Of a stretch of 64,000 nucleotides of DNA, positions 55,029 to 64,000 are shown piece by piece. The stretch's first letter is position 1; each line of letters starts with the position of its first letter. Under the pieces are notes generated by a model. It did not search any database and was not told the DNA's origin. It worked only from the letters and a program-made list of their open reading frames with translations. Origin of the DNA: Demequina sp. TMPB413 (GTDB lineage Bacteria; Actinomycetota; Actinomycetes; Actinomycetales; Demequinaceae); the NCBI RefSeq assembly GCF_020447105.2, contig NZ_CP096184.1, forward strand, positions 2,480,001 through 2,544,000, read 5' to 3'. The position numbers and the translations under genes were made by a program.

Positions 55029-56870
55029 ATGATCCTGGTGACTCTCGCCGCCATTGTCCGCGACGTGGGCGTGGCAGCGGTGGTGGGCGGACTCCTGATG
55101 GTCGCCGCCGTGGTGCGCGGTGCCGCCGCCGAACGAGCGGCCCTCGTGGCACGCATCGGCGCGCTCGTGTGGGTCGCCGCCGCGAGCGTCTTCCTGATCG
55201 CCTCTTACGTTGACATCGCGCAAGTAAGCGTCACCGCGCCAGACTTCGGCAGCCAGCTGTGGAGCTTCGTCGCGGACATCGACCTTGGCCGCGCGTACGG
55301 ACTCAACGTCCTCGCCGCCGTGGTGACCTCGATCATCGTGACGCTGGTGCGCACGCCCTCGGAGGCGGCATGGGGGCTGGTGCCGGTCGCCTACGGGCTC
55401 GGCGTGCAGGCGATGACGGGGCACGCGGCTGGGGCGGAGGACCACCACCTGGCCGTGACCTCGCTCTATGTGCACCTCGCCTCGTCCGCCGTGTGGCTAG
55501 GGCTGCTCCTGGTCGTGTTCGTGTCGCGCAAGCCGCTGGCCGGCGACGCCAAGGCCGCCGTGCAACGCGTCTCGCGAATGTCGCTGTGGGCCGCGTCGGC
55601 GATCGTGGCAACCGGCGCGGCGAACGCGTGGCTGCGCGTGGGCTCCGTGACCGACCTGGCAACCACCACCTACGGCCGGATGCTGGCGCTCAAACTGCTC
55701 CTCATGTCAGGAGTTATTGCCTTGGCCGCCTGGCACCGGCGCGCGACGATGCCACGCCTGACATCGGCCGACGTGAGGGCCAGGTTCTACCGAGTGCTCG
55801 CCTGGGACGTGGCGCTCTTGGCAGCGGTGGCTGGCATCGGCGGCGTGCTGTCGCGGACCGCGCCGACCATCCCCGTCGTGCTCGTCCCCGACCCCACTCC
55901 CGCCTTCGTCTTGACCGGCTATCCATTACCCCCACGCCCCGACGCGCTGCAATGGATCCTTCAGTGGCGACTCGAGATCCTTTCCGCGATGGTGATTCTC
56001 GCGCTCGTCCTGGTGTATCTGCGCTGGGCGAGCAGGCTGCGCCGACGCGGTGACGACTGGCCGTGGCAACGGACCGCCGCGTTCCTGGTGGGCATGGCGG
56101 GAATCGCCTGGATCACTCAAGGTGCGCCGGCTGTCTACGGAATGGTGACCTTCAGCGGGCACATGATGGAGCACATGCTGCTGGCCATGGCGGTGCCGCT
56201 GCCGATCGTCTATGCCGCACCGGTGACCCTCGCACTGCGCGCCCTTCCGAGCAGGGGTGACGGCACTCGCGGTCCTCGCGAGTGGATGCGGACCATCGTG
56301 GAGTCGCGGTGGATGCGCTTCATCGCGCACCCCGTGGTGGCTGCGGTGAACTTCGCCGGCTCACTCGTGGTGTTCTACTACTCACCGCTATTCGAGTTCG
56401 CGCTACGCAACCACGCGGGGCACTTGTGGATGATCGTGCACTTCACGCTCGCCGGCTACCTGTTCGCCAACGCCCTGGTGGGAATCGACCCGGGGCCAAC
56501 CCGCCCCGCGTATCCGATGCGCGTGCTCTTGCTCTTCGCGACCATGGCGTTCCACGCCTTCTTTGGCGTCGCGCTCACCTCCTCAGAGGTGCTGCTTGCC
56601 CCCAGGTGGTACGGGCTCATGGGCAGGGATTGGGGCGCCGACGCTATTACCGACCAGCAGTACGGGGGTTCCATTGCGTGGGGGCTTGGCGAGCTTCCCG
56701 TGCTCATCCTCGCGATCGGGGTGCTCGTGGCGTGGCGACGCGCGGATGCGCGTACGGCCAAGCGCAAGGACAGGGAGGCAGAGCGCTCAGGCGACGCGGA
56801 CTTGGGTGCCTACAACGCGATGCTGGGCGGCCTCGCGGCGTCAGAGGACGAGAGGCCGCCCTCTCGCTAG
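55029..56870 (+). CDS. CopD-CtaG fusion protein (copper/cytochrome oxidase assembly)
   Basis: 613-aa membrane protein. The N-terminal half matches CopD copper-import-type membrane proteins (TGHAAGAEDHHLAVTSLYVH, LHLASSAVWLG). The C-terminal half matches CtaG_Caa3 oxidase assembly factors (MVTFSGHMMEHMLLAMAVPL; HAGHLWMIVHFTLAGYLF; AFHAFFGVALTSSEVL). His and Met residues in helices suit copper handling for haem-copper oxidase. The fusion is usual in actinobacteria. The last ~40 residues are charged and cytoplasmic. Confidence 0.92.
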   Translation: MILVTLAAIVRDVGVAAVVGGLLMVAAVVRGAAAERAALVARIGALVWVAAASVFLIASYVDIAQVSVTAPDFGSQLWSFVADIDLGRAYGLNVLAAVVTSIIVTLVRTPSEAAWGLVPVAYGLGVQAMTGHAAGAEDHHLAVTSLYVHLASSAVWLGLLLVVFVSRKPLAGDAKAAVQRVSRMSLWAASAIVATGAANAWLRVGSVTDLATTTYGRMLALKLLLMSGVIALAAWHRRATMPRLTSADVRARFYRVLAWDVALLAAVAGIGGVLSRTAPTIPVVLVPDPTPAFVLTGYPLPPRPDALQWILQWRLEILSAMVILALVLVYLRWASRLRRRGDDWPWQRTAAFLVGMAGIAWITQGAPAVYGMVTFSGHMMEHMLLAMAVPLPIVYAAPVTLALRALPSRGDGTRGPREWMRTIVESRWMRFIAHPVVAAVNFAGSLVVFYYSPLFEFALRNHAGHLWMIVHFTLAGYLFANALVGIDPGPTRPAYPMRVLLLFATMAFHAFFGVALTSSEVLLAPRWYGLMGRDWGADAITDQQYGGSIAWGLGELPVLILAIGVLVAWRRADARTAKRKDREAERSGDADLGAYNAMLGGLAASEDERPPSR

Positions 56871-58243: not shown

Positions 58244-58268
58244 TAAGCCGTGAGCGGAGGAGGTGTTC

Positions 58269-60377
58269 GTGGGCGACACCGAGCGCGACAGCGAAGCCGC
58301 TCGTTCCGAGTCAGCGGCGGAGCGACTCGCGCGCCTTGAGACGATTCTTGAACTCGCGCCCGTCGGCATCGGCCTGGTGGATTTTGAGGGCCGCACCACC
58401 ATGACCAATAGCGCCCTCCACCGCATGCTCGGCTACAGCGCAGAAGAGTTTGCGACGATGCCGTGGAAAGAGTTCACGCACCCTGACGACATCGAGCCGA
58501 ATGCGGTGCTGTCCCGCAAGCTCGCCGCGGGGGAAATCGACCACTTCACGATGGAAAAGAGGTTCCTTCGCAAAGGCGGAGGCTACCTGTGGACCGCCCT
58601 GACCGTGTCGCTCGTGAGGCGTGCGGATGGCACTCCCGATTACGAGATTGGAATGACCCTCGACATCACCAAACGCAAGCGCCTCGAGAGCGATTTGCGT
58701 GCGGCGGAAGAGCAGTTCCGACTTCTCGTCGAGCGCGTTCCTGCCGTGGTGTACGCGATGGAGGTGGGCGAGCAGACCACGGGGAGCTACGTCAGCCCCC
58801 AGATCGCACGCATGCTCGGCTTCGCCCCGGAAGAGTGGCGAGAGGATCCCGAGCTCTGGATCCGGCAGCTCGATCCGGCTGATCGCGACGAGGTGCTGGC
58901 GAGCAGGCTGCACATGATGCACGCGACCACCGACCCCGAACCGCGGTCCGACACGTACCGCCTCCACCGTCGCGACGGCACGGTCGTGTGGGTGCGAGAC
59001 GACACCATGGTGCTCCGCGACCAGAACGGCGTGAAGTCCTTGCACGGCGTCATCGTTGACGTGACGCAAGAGAAGGACCTGGAGCAGCGCCTGGCGTATC
59101 AGGCCTATCACGATGCGCTCACTGGTCTTCCCAACCGAAGCCTCTTTCGCGAGAGCGTCTCCAAGTCGCTAGCGACCGCGGGCGATGCGGACCGCCGTTG
59201 CGTGGTCATCTTCATCGACCTCGACCGTTTCAAGACCGTCAACGACAGTTTCGGCCATGCCTCCGGCGACGAGGTGATCAGGGCGGCGGCCCGCCGCATC
59301 GACGCATGTGCGCGCGAGGGCGACACGGCAGCACGTCTGGGCGGCGACGAGTTTGCACTCTTGCTCAAGAACTCGGATGTGGAGCAGGCGTCGGCGCTTG
59401 CCAATCGGATCCTCGTCGCTCTCCACGACACCCCGATCGAGTTCAGCGGCGGCACTGTCTTGGTGGGGGCGAGCATCGGTATTGCCGCCGCGGGCCCTAC
59501 GGACACGACCGAGACGCTCCTCCGCAACGCCGACCTTGCGATGTACGAGGCGAAGCAGCGTGGCCGCGGCCGCCACACCGTGTACGAGCCGGGAATGCAC
59601 AAGGGCGCGGTGGCGCAATTTCGTCTCGCCGCCGCCCTCCAGGTGGCAGTCGCGGCCGAGGCAATCTCGCTGGTCTATCAACCCATTGCCAACCTGCATA
59701 CCGGCGTCGTCGTCGGCATGGAGGCCCTTGCTCGGTGGAACGACCCCGACCTGGGTGACGTCCCGCCCTCCGAGTTCATCCCCGTCGCAGAGCAGACGGG
59801 CCTGATTCAAGAGATCGGCAGGCAAGTCGTGAGGGGGGCGTGCGGTGATCTTGTCCGGTGGCGCCGGGAGACGGGCGGCCATGCGTACGTCAGTGTCAAC
59901 GTGTCGCCTCTTCAACTTGACGACGACGGTTTTGCTGGCTTTGTGGTCGCCACTTTGGCGGAGCATCAGTTGGAGGCGGCAAGCCTCGTGCTTGAGGTGA
60001 CGGAGGGGCTGCTGCTCCACGAGCACAGCCGGGAGACCCTGCGGGAGCTGCGTGCGCTGGGAGTCCGCGTGGCGATTGACGATTTCGGGACCGGCTACTC
60101 CTCGCTCAGTTACTTGAGGGAGTTGCCCGTGGACATGGTCAAGCTCGACCAAGGCTTTGTGAACCCCGCGGTGCCAGCGGTGGGAGACTTCGCCTTCCTC
60201 CAGGCGGTAGTGCGGCTCGCGGAGACCCTCCACATGGTGACCGTTGCGGAGGGAATCGAGACGTCTGCGCAACTGAGCGAACTGCGGTCGATGGAATGCG
60301 CCCTCGGACAGGGCTACTACCTCGCGCGACCAGGGCCGATCGCGCGCATACCGACGTCGCTGACCACGTTGAGCTAA
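58269..60377 (+). CDS. PAS-PAS-GGDEF-EAL cyclic-di-GMP signalling protein
   Basis: 702-aa soluble sensor. Two PAS domains (~18-135 and ~140-260; PAC-type ending LDITKRKRLE), a GGDEF domain with intact active site RLGGDEFALL (~358) and a Lys/Asp-rich ...DLDRFKTVNDSFGH motif, then an EAL domain with GMEALARW (~484), and DDFGTGYSSLSYL with KLDQGFV. Both synthesis and breakdown of c-di-GMP are possible from motifs. The GTG at 58269 is chosen because GGAGGAGG lies 5 nt before it; the GTG 6 nt upstream overlaps that site. No membrane segment. Confidence 0.93.
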   Translation: MGDTERDSEAARSESAAERLARLETILELAPVGIGLVDFEGRTTMTNSALHRMLGYSAEEFATMPWKEFTHPDDIEPNAVLSRKLAAGEIDHFTMEKRFLRKGGGYLWTALTVSLVRRADGTPDYEIGMTLDITKRKRLESDLRAAEEQFRLLVERVPAVVYAMEVGEQTTGSYVSPQIARMLGFAPEEWREDPELWIRQLDPADRDEVLASRLHMMHATTDPEPRSDTYRLHRRDGTVVWVRDDTMVLRDQNGVKSLHGVIVDVTQEKDLEQRLAYQAYHDALTGLPNRSLFRESVSKSLATAGDADRRCVVIFIDLDRFKTVNDSFGHASGDEVIRAAARRIDACAREGDTAARLGGDEFALLLKNSDVEQASALANRILVALHDTPIEFSGGTVLVGASIGIAAAGPTDTTETLLRNADLAMYEAKQRGRGRHTVYEPGMHKGAVAQFRLAAALQVAVAAEAISLVYQPIANLHTGVVVGMEALARWNDPDLGDVPPSEFIPVAEQTGLIQEIGRQVVRGACGDLVRWRRETGGHAYVSVNVSPLQLDDDGFAGFVVATLAEHQLEAASLVLEVTEGLLLHEHSRETLRELRALGVRVAIDDFGTGYSSLSYLRELPVDMVKLDQGFVNPAVPAVGDFAFLQAVVRLAETLHMVTVAEGIETSAQLSELRSMECALGQGYYLARPGPIARIPTSLTTLS

Positions 60378-61694: not shown

Positions 61695-61814
61695 TTGCTG
61701 TGATCAGGCTCGCTCGTCGCGGGAGTCAGGTTCGCCCTGTGACTTGATCTGCGTCAAGGCGTTCTCGCCACCGTCTCCGTAGCGTCGGGGGTGACTCAAC
61801 AGAAGGAGCACCCC

Positions 61815-62420
61815 ATGTTCACTCAGAACATCACCACCCTGCTGGCCCATCTCAGGCCAACCGACGTCGAAGCCCACTGCGACACGGCCGATGGCCCGGC
61901 CGCCACAGACGGTCGCAAGGCCCTCGACACCGGCAACATCAATCACGCGCTCAAGTGGATCCCGGCCGAGGGCGAGGATGAGTTACGCGGCGTGTTCAGC
62001 AAGGCGTTGCGAGTGAGGACGCTCGGGGCCGATGCGGGCGACCTCGCCGACCGACTCTTCCTCGAGACCCTTGTCCGCCTGCACCGCATGGGTGAGGGGG
62101 TTGGCTTCACCGGCGTGCAACCAACAGGCACCGCCATTGATCCGGTGGTCAAGGCCGCCGACGAGGCGCTCGCCTTTGGCACGGACGATCGCCTGTTGCC
62201 GATGGTGCCCGAGGAGCGCCGGGAGGAACTCCACAGGCGCTTCCACGCCGCGAACGCCGCCGCTTCCTTTGACGCCGACGACGTGGCGGCTGGCCGTCGT
62301 TACCTCGCCGCTTACGTGGACTTCTTCAAGTTTGCCGAGGGCGACGACCACGATCACGGGCACGACGCTCGGGGCGGGCAGTGCCACGACCCCCGGCAAG
62401 TACCTGCCCACGCCCACTAG
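61815..62420 (+). CDS. DUF6448 protein with NiSOD-like leader-HCD start and His-rich tail
   Basis: 201-aa protein of a family without a known function. After a 20-residue leader (ends DVEA) comes HCDTADGP, with His21-Cys22-Asp23; the mid-region is typical of DUF6448 (VRTLGADAGDLADRLFLETL, then VRLHRMGEGVGFTG). The last 27 residues hold six His and one Cys (DDHDHGHD, GQCHDP, AHAH), likely metal-binding. AAGGAG lies 6 nt before the ATG at 61815; the GTG 24 nt upstream is rejected. The next gene, 9 nt on, is an S26 peptidase, the same layout as sodN-sodX. Confidence 0.85.
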   Translation: MFTQNITTLLAHLRPTDVEAHCDTADGPAATDGRKALDTGNINHALKWIPAEGEDELRGVFSKALRVRTLGADAGDLADRLFLETLVRLHRMGEGVGFTGVQPTGTAIDPVVKAADEALAFGTDDRLLPMVPEERREELHRRFHAANAAASFDADDVAAGRRYLAAYVDFFKFAEGDDHDHGHDARGGQCHDPRQVPAHAH

Positions 62421-62429
62421 GACGGCGCG

Positions 62430-62915
62430 ATGAGTCGACTCGTCAGAGTGGTCGGCGGCTCCATGGCTCCCACCTTCCGCCCGTCCGACCTGCTGCTCAC
62501 TCGGCGGGTCGGACGCGGCGGCAGGGGCGTCGGACGTGGGGAAGTGGTGGTGTTTCGACACGGCGGTGCGGTGATGATCAAGCGCGTGGTGGGCGTCGGC
62601 GGCGACAGGATCGCTCTGGAGGCCGGCAAGCTGACGATCAACGGGGATCCCGTCGACGGCCAGCCCGCTGTGCGCGGGGCCTACCGGCACACGTGGACGG
62701 TCCCGCCCGGCACCTACTTCGTGGCCGGGGACAACGCTGCGGTGTCCGATGACTCGCGCGTGTGGAGCGAGCCCTTTGTGGGGGCCGCGCATGTGCAGGC
62801 AGTGGTGACACGCAGGCTGGCGCAATGGCCGGCGCGCTCGCCGCTTCCTGGGTGGCGCGGAGTTCGCGGTTTCATGCGCCTGCTGCGAGCTGCCGCAACG
62901 CGTCGGATCGCGTGA
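62430..62915 (+). CDS. S26 signal-peptidase-like protease (SodX-like)
   Basis: 161-aa peptidase. Catalytic Ser11 in GGSMAPTF and Lys51 in VMIKRVVG, with the later GDN (100-102) and SDDSR (106-110) motifs of signal peptidase I. It has no N-terminal membrane anchor, unlike ordinary LepB, as in the SodX maturation proteases. Start ATG follows the DUF6448 stop by 9 nt, so they are cotranscribed. Its last 44 bp overlap the convergent Crp/Fnr gene. Confidence 0.88.
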   Translation: MSRLVRVVGGSMAPTFRPSDLLLTRRVGRGGRGVGRGEVVVFRHGGAVMIKRVVGVGGDRIALEAGKLTINGDPVDGQPAVRGAYRHTWTVPPGTYFVAGDNAAVSDDSRVWSEPFVGAAHVQAVVTRRLAQWPARSPLPGWRGVRGFMRLLRAAATRRIA

Positions 62916-63549
62916 TGGAGACTGATCGTCCCGACCCGATCCTGATGAGTCCCTGCGTGGCGAGCGACGCGAGCGCGCGGCTGAGGCTCTCTGGCGTGGT
63001 GTCGATGAGCGACGCGATGTCCTTCTTGGCCATCGGCAGATGTACAGTCTGAGCGCCGTCGACATTGGCCCCCGGCAGGCCGAGCAAGTACCCGGCGAGA
63101 CGGCTCTCGACATCGCGCGATGTGAGCGAGTTGAGGCGGTCTTCCGTCGCTGCCAGCCTTGCGCTCACGGTCGCGAGCATCCGCACCCCCGTTTCCGGGT
63201 ACTTGCGTACCAGCGCCAGGAGGTCATCGTGACGGAAGGCGCAGACCTGACAGTCGTCCAGTGCGGCGGCAAAGTCTCCAGGGGGTTGACCGGTGAACAC
63301 TGCCGTCTCTCCTGTGAACTCGCCGGGCCCCAGGACCCTCACCAGCTGCTCCGTTCCATCGGGGGAGATACGGAAGATCTTGAGGCGGCCCGTGTGCACC
63401 ACGAGCAGGCGGGCGGCCTCGTCCGAGGCGGAGTACGCGAGCTCGCCCACCTGCAGGCGCACCGGGCGGGCCACCCCGGCGACGCGCCGTTGCTCGTCCT
63501 CCGTGAGTCCGGCGAAAATCGGCACTCGCGTGACGCACGTGTCGACCAT
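62872..63549 (-). CDS. Crp/Fnr-family transcriptional regulator
   Basis: 225-aa regulator. N-terminal cyclic-nucleotide-binding-like domain (VPIFAGLTEDEQRRVAG; LGPGEFTGETAVFTGQ) and C-terminal winged helix (MAKKDIASLIDTTPESLSRA). Cysteines near the start (VDTCVTRVPIF) and in DDCQVCAF could sense redox state, but there is no FNR-type four-Cys cluster. It is convergent with the DUF6448-S26 operon and downstream of the ArsB-type gene on the same strand. Start ATG 63549. Confidence 0.9.
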   Translation of the reverse strand: MVDTCVTRVPIFAGLTEDEQRRVAGVARPVRLQVGELAYSASDEAARLLVVHTGRLKIFRISPDGTEQLVRVLGPGEFTGETAVFTGQPPGDFAAALDDCQVCAFRHDDLLALVRKYPETGVRMLATVSARLAATEDRLNSLTSRDVESRLAGYLLGLPGANVDGAQTVHLPMAKKDIASLIDTTPESLSRALASLATQGLIRIGSGRSVSITRSDALRQLAAGA

Positions 63550-63623: not shown

Positions 63624-64000
63624 TTAGGCGCCGATCAGGCTCAGCCAACCGACGAGCGCGAGCAGCGTGATGGCCAACACGGGGATGGTCAGGACGATGC
63701 CCACCTTGAAATACGTTCCCCATCCGATGTGCATCCCCTTGCGGTCGAGCACGTGCAGCCACAACAGCGTCGCGAGGCTGCCGATCGGAGTGATCTTGGG
63801 CCCAAGGTCGGAGCCGATGACGTTGGCGTAGATCATGAACTGCTGCGTGAGACCCGTCGCGCCTGACGCCTCAATGCCGAGCGCGGCTACCAGCACGGTG
63901 GGCATGTTGTTCATGATGGAGGACAGGCCCGCGACGAGGAACCCAGTTCCCCCCGCGGCCGCGAGAGGGCCATGGTCGCCGAACCACGCGAAGACGTCGC
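63624..64000 (-). CDS. ArsB/SLC13-type permease, C-terminal part (cut by window edge)
   Basis: The last ~125 residues of a large anion permease. [19 protein letters not shown] and [20 protein letters not shown], followed by HVL, are the signature of ArsB-type arsenite pumps; a general citrate-transporter-family (ArsB/NhaD) permease is the alternative. The frame is open to the right edge. The Crp/Fnr gene follows 74 nt downstream. Confidence 0.88.

Follow-up and report, generated by a model that had tools for sequence, protein, structure and literature searches.

What does a small protease gene do directly behind a gene of the DUF6448 family? The question is raised by two adjacent genes in a 64,000-nt stretch of the genome of Demequina sp. 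TMPB413, hereafter called the window. An earlier note on this DNA proposed that the pair, a short-leadered protein with His-Cys-Asp after the leader and an S26 peptidase, mirrors the maturation of nickel superoxide dismutase (NiSOD). NiSOD and its protease SodX are, to our knowledge, the only case of a cytosolic S26 peptidase that trims a leader to make a metal-binding N-terminus. According to the available parts of the two papers, the N-terminus of SodN is processed by a cognate peptidase (PMC3919588) and the preprotein is cleaved by the SodX protease (PMC8346466). The name DUF6448 was not found in the literature search, nor did any title or abstract treat the DUF6448-S26 pair, and the available parts of PMC8510549 and PMC6332867 hold nothing decisive on it.

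The gene pair

The DUF6448 gene (61815-62420, forward strand) encodes 201 aa, from an ATG at 61815 to a stop codon at 62418-62420. This ATG was preferred over an in-frame GTG upstream, at 61791, because a ribosome-binding-like sequence, AAGGAG (61803-61808, forward strand), stands before it. The product matches PF20046 with 173 bits (cut-off 27, E 4.9e-51), and the family name given in the earlier note is thus correct. The leader, MFTQNITTLLAHLRPTDVEA (61815-61874, forward strand), is 20 residues long, weakly hydrophobic and ends in DVEA, of which V-E-A fits the (-3,-1) rule. The predicted mature protein of 181 aa (61875-62417, forward strand) starts with HCDTADGP, where the codons of His1-Cys2-Asp3 are at 61875-61883 (forward strand), continues with two helical repeats of about 80 aa and ends in a His-rich tail, DDHDHGHD..HAH (62346-62417, forward strand).

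The S26 gene (62430-62915, forward strand, 161 aa) starts with an ATG 9 nt past the DUF6448 stop codon. Its product exceeds the cut-offs of PF10502 Peptidase_S26 (88.6 bits, cut-off 22.9) and of TIGR02227 (89.7 bits, cut-off 47), and the codons of the catalytic dyad are at 62460-62462 (Ser) and 62580-62582 (Lys). The catalytic SMAP motif begins after just 10 residues, which leaves no room for a membrane anchor. The leader, the HCD sequence behind it, the His-rich C-terminus and the anchorless S26 peptidase were all described in the earlier note, and the genes bear them out. The main signal peptidase of the genome is encoded elsewhere, not at the DUF6448 locus.

A conserved N-terminus

An alignment-based scan of GTDB contigs confirmed at least 555 relatives among at least 590 candidate stretches, and the best 80 were kept (L016-L095). 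Since this set is skewed towards the clade of the window, genome samples of the order and of several phyla were taken as well. The conserved block opens with His-Cys-Asp or His-Cys-Asn in all of the best 80 of the at least 555 relatives, 75 by the strict motif and five by eye after translation; L092 is frameshifted behind the motif. Mature sequences were collected from 82 copies (the window, L013, 77 of the 80 scan loci and three second copies; L060, L090 and L092 are absent). The leaders of these copies are of several kinds, and in 82 of 82 the residues -1 and -3 fit a signal-peptidase site exactly ahead of the His.

For conservation, 68 of the 82 mature copies were aligned; the other 14 were left out by choice, mostly as close duplicates. 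His1, Cys2, Gly7, Pro8, Trp28, His70, Arg71, Glu74, Gly80, Asp96, Tyr147, Val148 and Glu155 are invariant in the alignment, and Asp3 is kept in 67 of 68. Cys2 is the sole cysteine in 64 of the 82 copies, and at least four His are found among the last 25 residues in 62 of them. That the leader is cleaved before the His is very likely, judging from these sequences.

An AlphaFold (AF2) model built from the 68 sequences is all helical, with a mean pLDDT of 92, a pTM of 0.82 and a pLDDT of 97 for the N-terminal ten residues. The two halves are tandem helical repeats of about 80 residues (hhalign probability 96%, E 1.7e-9). The first repeat alone carries HCD and His70, and an invariant Glu is found in both (74 and 155), a correspondence that comes from the global repeat alignment, as the local one stops short of Glu155. 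The freed N-terminus, with its alpha-amine, the His1 imidazole and the Cys2 thiolate, may form a metal site on this internally duplicated scaffold. His70 and Glu74 (HRxxE, codons 62082-62096, forward strand) are candidate further ligands, and together with Glu155 (62337-62339, forward strand), the presumed counterpart of Glu74 in the second repeat, they would probably complete the site. The His-rich tail could then help to load or to buffer the metal. We infer that the matured protein probably binds metal.

The available part of PMC12537917 presents exported proteins with an N-terminal histidine as a productive source of metalloproteins. In the secreted families identified by signal-strapping (DUF4198, DUF6702 and the anglerases), removal of the signal also exposes a His that is a metal ligand. 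These families are exported. What sets DUF6448 apart is its His-Cys-Asp, its helical model and the dedicated peptidase that a part of the family has.

Regulation and gene neighbourhood

A box of the FNR/DNR type, TTGATCTGCGTCAA, is found at 61744-61757, 57 nt before the DUF6448 ATG. It is the sole TTGAN6TCAA in the window, where 0.22 were expected and 20 of 100 shuffles had at least one. The whole genome of 2.92 Mb has three TTGAYNNNNRTCAA sites as compared to seven for the reversed-pattern control, so the count is below that of the control. One of the other two sites lies inside an ORF that is ArsR-like by eye, and the other overlaps the start of an ORF on the opposite strand, about 225 nt before a [FeFe]-hydrogenase-like gene. 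The latter box (L146:4947-4960) stands ahead of a gene whose product resembles NAD-linked hydrogenases (L146:1536-4721, minus strand). In all 12 rows of the clade of the window, two of them identical copies, the box stands 111-128 nt ahead of the His codon. It is thus at promoter distance and conserved in relatives, as in an FNR/DNR regulon. For 18 of 81 genes an exact TTGAN6TCAA lies in the 300 bp ahead of the His codon; among background windows from the retrieved loci the count is 70 of 3904. If one mismatch is allowed, the two counts become 34 of 81 and 552 of 3904. Many of the 81 genes are close relatives and not independent cases, and L054 had too little upstream sequence to be counted.

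Behind the S26 gene, on the minus strand (62872-63549), is a gene for a Crp/Fnr-family regulator, recognised by profile matches and by its FNR-type recognition helix, PESLSR. The best matches of the product are Fnr, FtrB and FixK, all under their cut-offs. The E..SR recognition helix of FNR reads TTGA, and it is present in 15 of the 17 neighbouring Crp/Fnr copies, that of the window included; such genes neighbour DUF6448 in 16 of 91 loci. We propose that an FNR-type protein activates the two-gene unit at the box, and that the DUF6448 precursor and its maturation peptidase are translated from this unit.

In the neighbour clustering, a quinol nitric-oxide reductase (qNOR) was found in seven of the 91 loci, six times directly downstream at a distance of 131 nt or less. 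Other neighbours were hemerythrin-like proteins (8), Ric (5), flavorubredoxin (4) and Hcp (3), the clusters being named by Pfam and NCBIfam from one representative each. The Bacteroidota sample has a Crp-type gene in 13 of 30 loci and a qNOR in five of 30, within about 1.5 kb; the qNOR loci include the centre L170 and also L180, apparently a repeat of L075. Plasmid copies of DUF6448 are located beside hcp, ric and flavorubredoxin genes (Pelobacter) or beside a hemerythrin and a Crp/Fnr gene (Sinorhizobium), and among the hosts of S26-bearing loci are Brachymonas denitrificans and Pollutimonas nitritireducens. The nitric-oxide regulons of the FNR-type regulators DNR, NnrR and HcpR are described in the available part of PMC1274295. 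The DUF6448 loci resemble them in their FNR-type boxes and recognition helices and in having qNOR, Ric and Hcp as neighbours; a difference is that neither 'signal peptidase' nor 'DUF6448' occurs in that part of the text.

No nitric-oxide enzyme was seen beside the operon of the window, where the neighbours are the Crp/Fnr gene and an ArsB-type permease gene. The permease gene follows the regulator gene (63624-64000, minus strand, in the window; L147:3625-5082) and its product matches PF02040 with 502 bits. Farther upstream the window encodes a fusion of CopD and CtaG, that is copper resistance D and a caa3 oxidase assembly factor (55029-56870), and, two genes upstream of the operon, a PAS-PAS-GGDEF-EAL protein (58263-60377). 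What DUF6448 does is best suggested by its FNR-type control and by the nitric-oxide genes around it, neither of which is mentioned in the earlier note; they give a lead, nitric oxide or low oxygen, for a family that is uncharacterised. For the family as a whole such a role is probable. In the organism of the window the chances for it are about even, and since no nitric-oxide enzyme stands beside the operon and the genome has the box sites mentioned above, low oxygen is there as likely a signal as nitric oxide.

Function of the matured protein

Put together, the gene pair would encode a protein with a proteolytically unmasked N-terminal metal site and its own peptidase, acting in the response to nitric oxide or low oxygen. 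We hold this to be somewhat more than an even bet, the grading here, as for its separate steps, being a matter of judgement. A more specific and tentative proposal is that DUF6448 may be a new metalloenzyme, unrelated to NiSOD, for the detoxification of nitric oxide or reactive nitrogen. Its His-Cys-Asp active site would be made by proteolysis, and the terminus would be reached by several routes: by export, by a membrane-type leader with an anchored private peptidase, or by a cytosolic leader with an anchorless private peptidase. The last of these would have arisen in parallel to that of SodN and SodX.

The same metal-binding end could also belong to a chaperone for metal sequestration or delivery and not to an enzyme, in which case the N-terminus and the His tail would bind Ni, Cu, Zn or Fe in a metal or low-oxygen response. 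The tails speak for this, as they are strongest in the S26-bearing groups; at least four His are found in the tail in 19 of 19 copies with an anchorless S26 and in 18 of 19 in the other S26-bearing group, as compared to 25 of 44 in the rest. Furthermore, the secreted N-terminal-His proteins DUF4198 and DUF6702 bind metal and are proposed transporters in the available part of PMC12537917. However, nitric-oxide and Fe-S repair genes are more common among the neighbours than metal transporters, and a private peptidase for a cytosolic form points to a site that is buried and assembled, not to a carrier. A chaperone is therefore possible but rather unlikely.

It is also conceivable that the N-terminus is not unmasked for a metal at all. 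Cys2 could be a reactive or S-nitrosylated thiol, or His1-Cys2-Asp3 a catalytic set, making DUF6448 a thiol enzyme or a nitric-oxide-trapping protein. A cysteine that is invariant in 68 of 68 proteins and, as stated above, mostly the only one, would suit such a role, as would the nitric-oxide genes nearby. We consider it unlikely, since a new N-terminal His combined with the invariant His70 and Glu74 and with His-rich tails has the usual look of a metal site, and other N-terminal-His families do bind metals according to the available part of PMC12537917.

Leader type and anchoring of the peptidase

We examined 92 loci, namely the window, three genome stretches, eight plasmid loci and the 80 scan loci (the best 80 of at least 555). 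At 41 of these 92 loci, among which relatives of the window are over-represented, an S26 gene follows the DUF6448 gene on the same strand. Of the 41 S26 genes, that of L092 is farther away and frameshifted, and those of L039 and L048 match S26 in two pieces that lie in different frames. The catalytic Ser is kept in 41 of 41 (in L027 by identity with L025), and the catalytic Lys was found by a strict pattern in 35 and by eye in the other six.

The leaders were scored with a Kyte-Doolittle window of 12, after the frameshifted L092 and L027, an identical duplicate of L025, had been dropped. Weakly hydrophobic leaders pair with an anchorless S26 (18 loci, 0.39-2.01) and membrane-type leaders with an anchored one (21 loci, 2.01-3.21; Mann-Whitney p 1.2e-7). 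Sixteen of the leaders scored below 1.7 stand beside an anchorless S26, and a single one, L043, whose start was mispicked, has no S26; the leaderless L014, L015 and L090 were set aside. Eight loci without S26 score 1.73-1.94 and thus overlap with the anchorless group, whose two highest loci cannot be told from them by score alone; the eight look like ordinary basic-hydrophobic export signals or mispicked start codons. The start codons were picked by a simple score, and some Bacteroidota leaders (L033, L034, L041, L043, L061 and L068, for instance) are too short, but these loci have no S26 and are hence outside the comparison. L038 and L040 gave no leader row.

In the tree of mature DUF6448 proteins, starred branches force two changes for the anchorless state. 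Leader and anchor each switch twice on this tree and both independent pairs shift in the same direction, although two switches are too few for a significant sign test. In the S26 tree, which used 37 of the 41 DUF6448-linked enzymes (L027, L039, L048 and L092 were left out), the anchorless ones fall in two groups of 11 and 6 rows, and starred branches force one change only.

The matching of leader type to S26 anchoring, with both traits switching together, supports cleavage before the His by the neighbouring S26, in the cytosol. Most simply read, substrate and enzyme of each pair stay in one compartment, in the clade of the window the cytosol. The leader of the window would then not be an export signal, and the anchorless S26 would use its Ser-Lys dyad to cut at Ala20|His21 and free His1-Cys2-Asp3. 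From these comparisons we consider it highly probable that the neighbouring S26 is the enzyme that cuts. A middle group would use a membrane-type leader and an anchored dedicated S26, and in most of the sampled relatives the same N-terminus would be exposed by export and signal peptidase. If this is true, leader and peptidase have swapped compartment together in the DUF6448 family.

Distribution and routes to the terminus

DUF6448 occurs in many bacterial phyla, in some Archaea and on plasmids; its distribution is patchy. It was found in four of 198 genomes of the order of the window and in nine of 396 of the phylum (the genome of the window is counted in both), and in three of 398 Pseudomonadota, three of 388 Bacillota and 33 of 385 Bacteroidota genomes, each count including the chosen centre. 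The samples gave 49 loci, centres included, with 30 of 38 places taken for Bacteroidota. A leader was found in 37 of the 49, among them L003, a broken copy ending in KPP that is doubtful. In 11 of the 49, M[P/A]P or a fragment ending in PP stands directly before HCD, with neither leader nor S26; a single broken gene accounts for two of these 11. One further locus is a fragment without the motif. An S26 is present in two of the 49, L002 from the genus of the window and L141, a centre picked for having S26. The private S26 is thus a derived trait of one part of DUF6448, as these are the only two such loci in the genome samples, and only a minority of the family has the pair.

To judge by their leaders, most of the relatives sampled use an export signal. 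The M[P/A]P-HCD proteins, with neither leader nor S26, weaken the claim that an unmasked amine is needed throughout the family. Some members may do without a free His1, which is doubtful in the MPP group; the clade of the window is unaffected by this. The survey of loci suggested with the earlier note has a divided outcome: His-Cys is invariant and the leader site was found in every leadered copy checked, while the S26 neighbour does not extend to DUF6448 in general.

The rarity of the S26 gene, together with the many ordinary export signals, could be taken to mean that it is a chance neighbour or serves other substrates, and that the main signal peptidase removes the leader, which would be a weak export signal. 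This is very improbable, since an adjacent S26 was found in Actinomycetota, Pseudomonadota, Bacillota and one archaeon (L048), and since the leaders below 1.7 adjoin an anchorless S26 in all cases except the mispicked L043.

Relation to NiSOD and SodX

The preferred reading, a proteolytically unmasked metal site with its own peptidase, leaves the question of kinship to NiSOD. PF20046 is the sole Pfam match in the DUF6448 protein of the window, and PF09055 Sod_Ni gave none at E up to 1. Comparison of DUF6448 with 14 NiSODs in hhalign gave a probability below 1%, and in a half-protein comparison only the letters of HCDxxxG were aligned. The second Cys of the NiSOD hook, HCxxxC, is missing as the earlier note had stated; the residue at position 6 is D in the window and, in the 68 aligned proteins, D in 56, E in eight, G in two, N in one and A in L076. 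Foldseek found no match for the model at E of 0.001 or less, and VIA-align placed a NiSOD chain (3g4x, Z 3.8, 66 aligned residues) among unrelated helical proteins, the best of which had a Z of 5.8. This alignment is out of register at the hook, with residue 1 of the model opposite residue 8 of the chain. That DUF6448 is a remote NiSOD relative with an altered hook, as the HCDxxxG start and the similar short leaders of both might suggest, is barely credible in view of the profiles, the low and shifted structural match and the internal duplication, and DUF6448 as a NiSOD homologue is unsupported. A weak sequence match to glycerol kinase in the PDB (E 0.013), which spans some of the helical core, was taken as chance.

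No NiSOD was found in the genome of the window itself. The control genomes gave no match in that run either, but the same search detected NiSOD in two of 16 other DUF6448 genomes, which shows that the method works.

The peptidase is not SodX either. The S26 of the window scores 26.4 bits against the SodX profile TIGR02754, below the cut-off of 63.25, and none of the eight other DUF6448-linked S26s sampled passes (28.3-38.9 bits), while the SodX control, L097, reaches 88.6. All eight exceed the TIGR02227 cut-off, as does the SodX control with 53 bits. In the S26 tree the 14 SodX and seven SodX-like rows form a separate starred clade, outside of which the S26 of the window falls, and six LepB rows are found among the DUF6448-linked enzymes, on the side away from SodX. 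The DUF6448-linked S26s are thus like type I signal peptidases (PF10502, TIGR02227) in passing the TIGR02227 cut-off and in the Ser-Lys dyad; those of the clade of the window differ in having no N-terminal membrane anchor and in that the gene is tied to one substrate.

The DUF6448-S26 pair has in common with NiSOD and SodX a short leader that ends at a small residue directly ahead of HCD, an adjacent S26 gene and the HCDxxxG start. It differs in the missing second Cys, in the protein family and the internal duplication, in its S26s, for which the signal peptidase I profile gives the higher scores and which are placed outside of the SodX clade, and in its nitric-oxide/FNR context and the many exported relatives. 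Since neither NiSOD nor SodX kinship was found, the likeness is confined to the way of working, which, by sequence, was reached separately. The claim that the pair mirrors NiSOD maturation can accordingly be kept in part: the leader end before the His, the matched S26, the invariant His-Cys and the His-rich tails make a NiSOD-like maturation logic likely, while kinship is unsupported by profiles, hhalign and the S26 tree. If this holds, DUF6448 would be a second, unrelated family with a metal-binding N-terminus made by a cytosolic S26, which would suggest a general way of building metal sites.

Variants among the relatives

The leaderless group (L131-L136, L015, L090, L150 and L151) has an M[P/A]P-HCD start, MMPP in L150 and L151; its spacer has a constant length of two residues, and S26 is absent. 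No relatives of the DUF6448 protein or of the S26 were found in viral contigs. On plasmids there are 47 DUF6448 records, 35 of them typed as conjugative, from Sinorhizobium, Klebsiella, Citrobacter, Salmonella, Marinobacter and others, and in the plasmid loci L008, L010 and L011 the gene adjoins that of an AraC-type regulator. Tandem DUF6448 genes are found in L069, L072 and L081, and the copies sit in different branches of the tree. The C-terminal end also varies in Bacillota (L012:5920-6750, L006:5941-6681, L067, L030, L046, L049, L071, L083 and L095). A LysM domain is present in L012, and L067 looks alike; some of the Bacillota proteins end, by eye, in a hydrophobic segment and a basic end, which suggests attachment to the surface.
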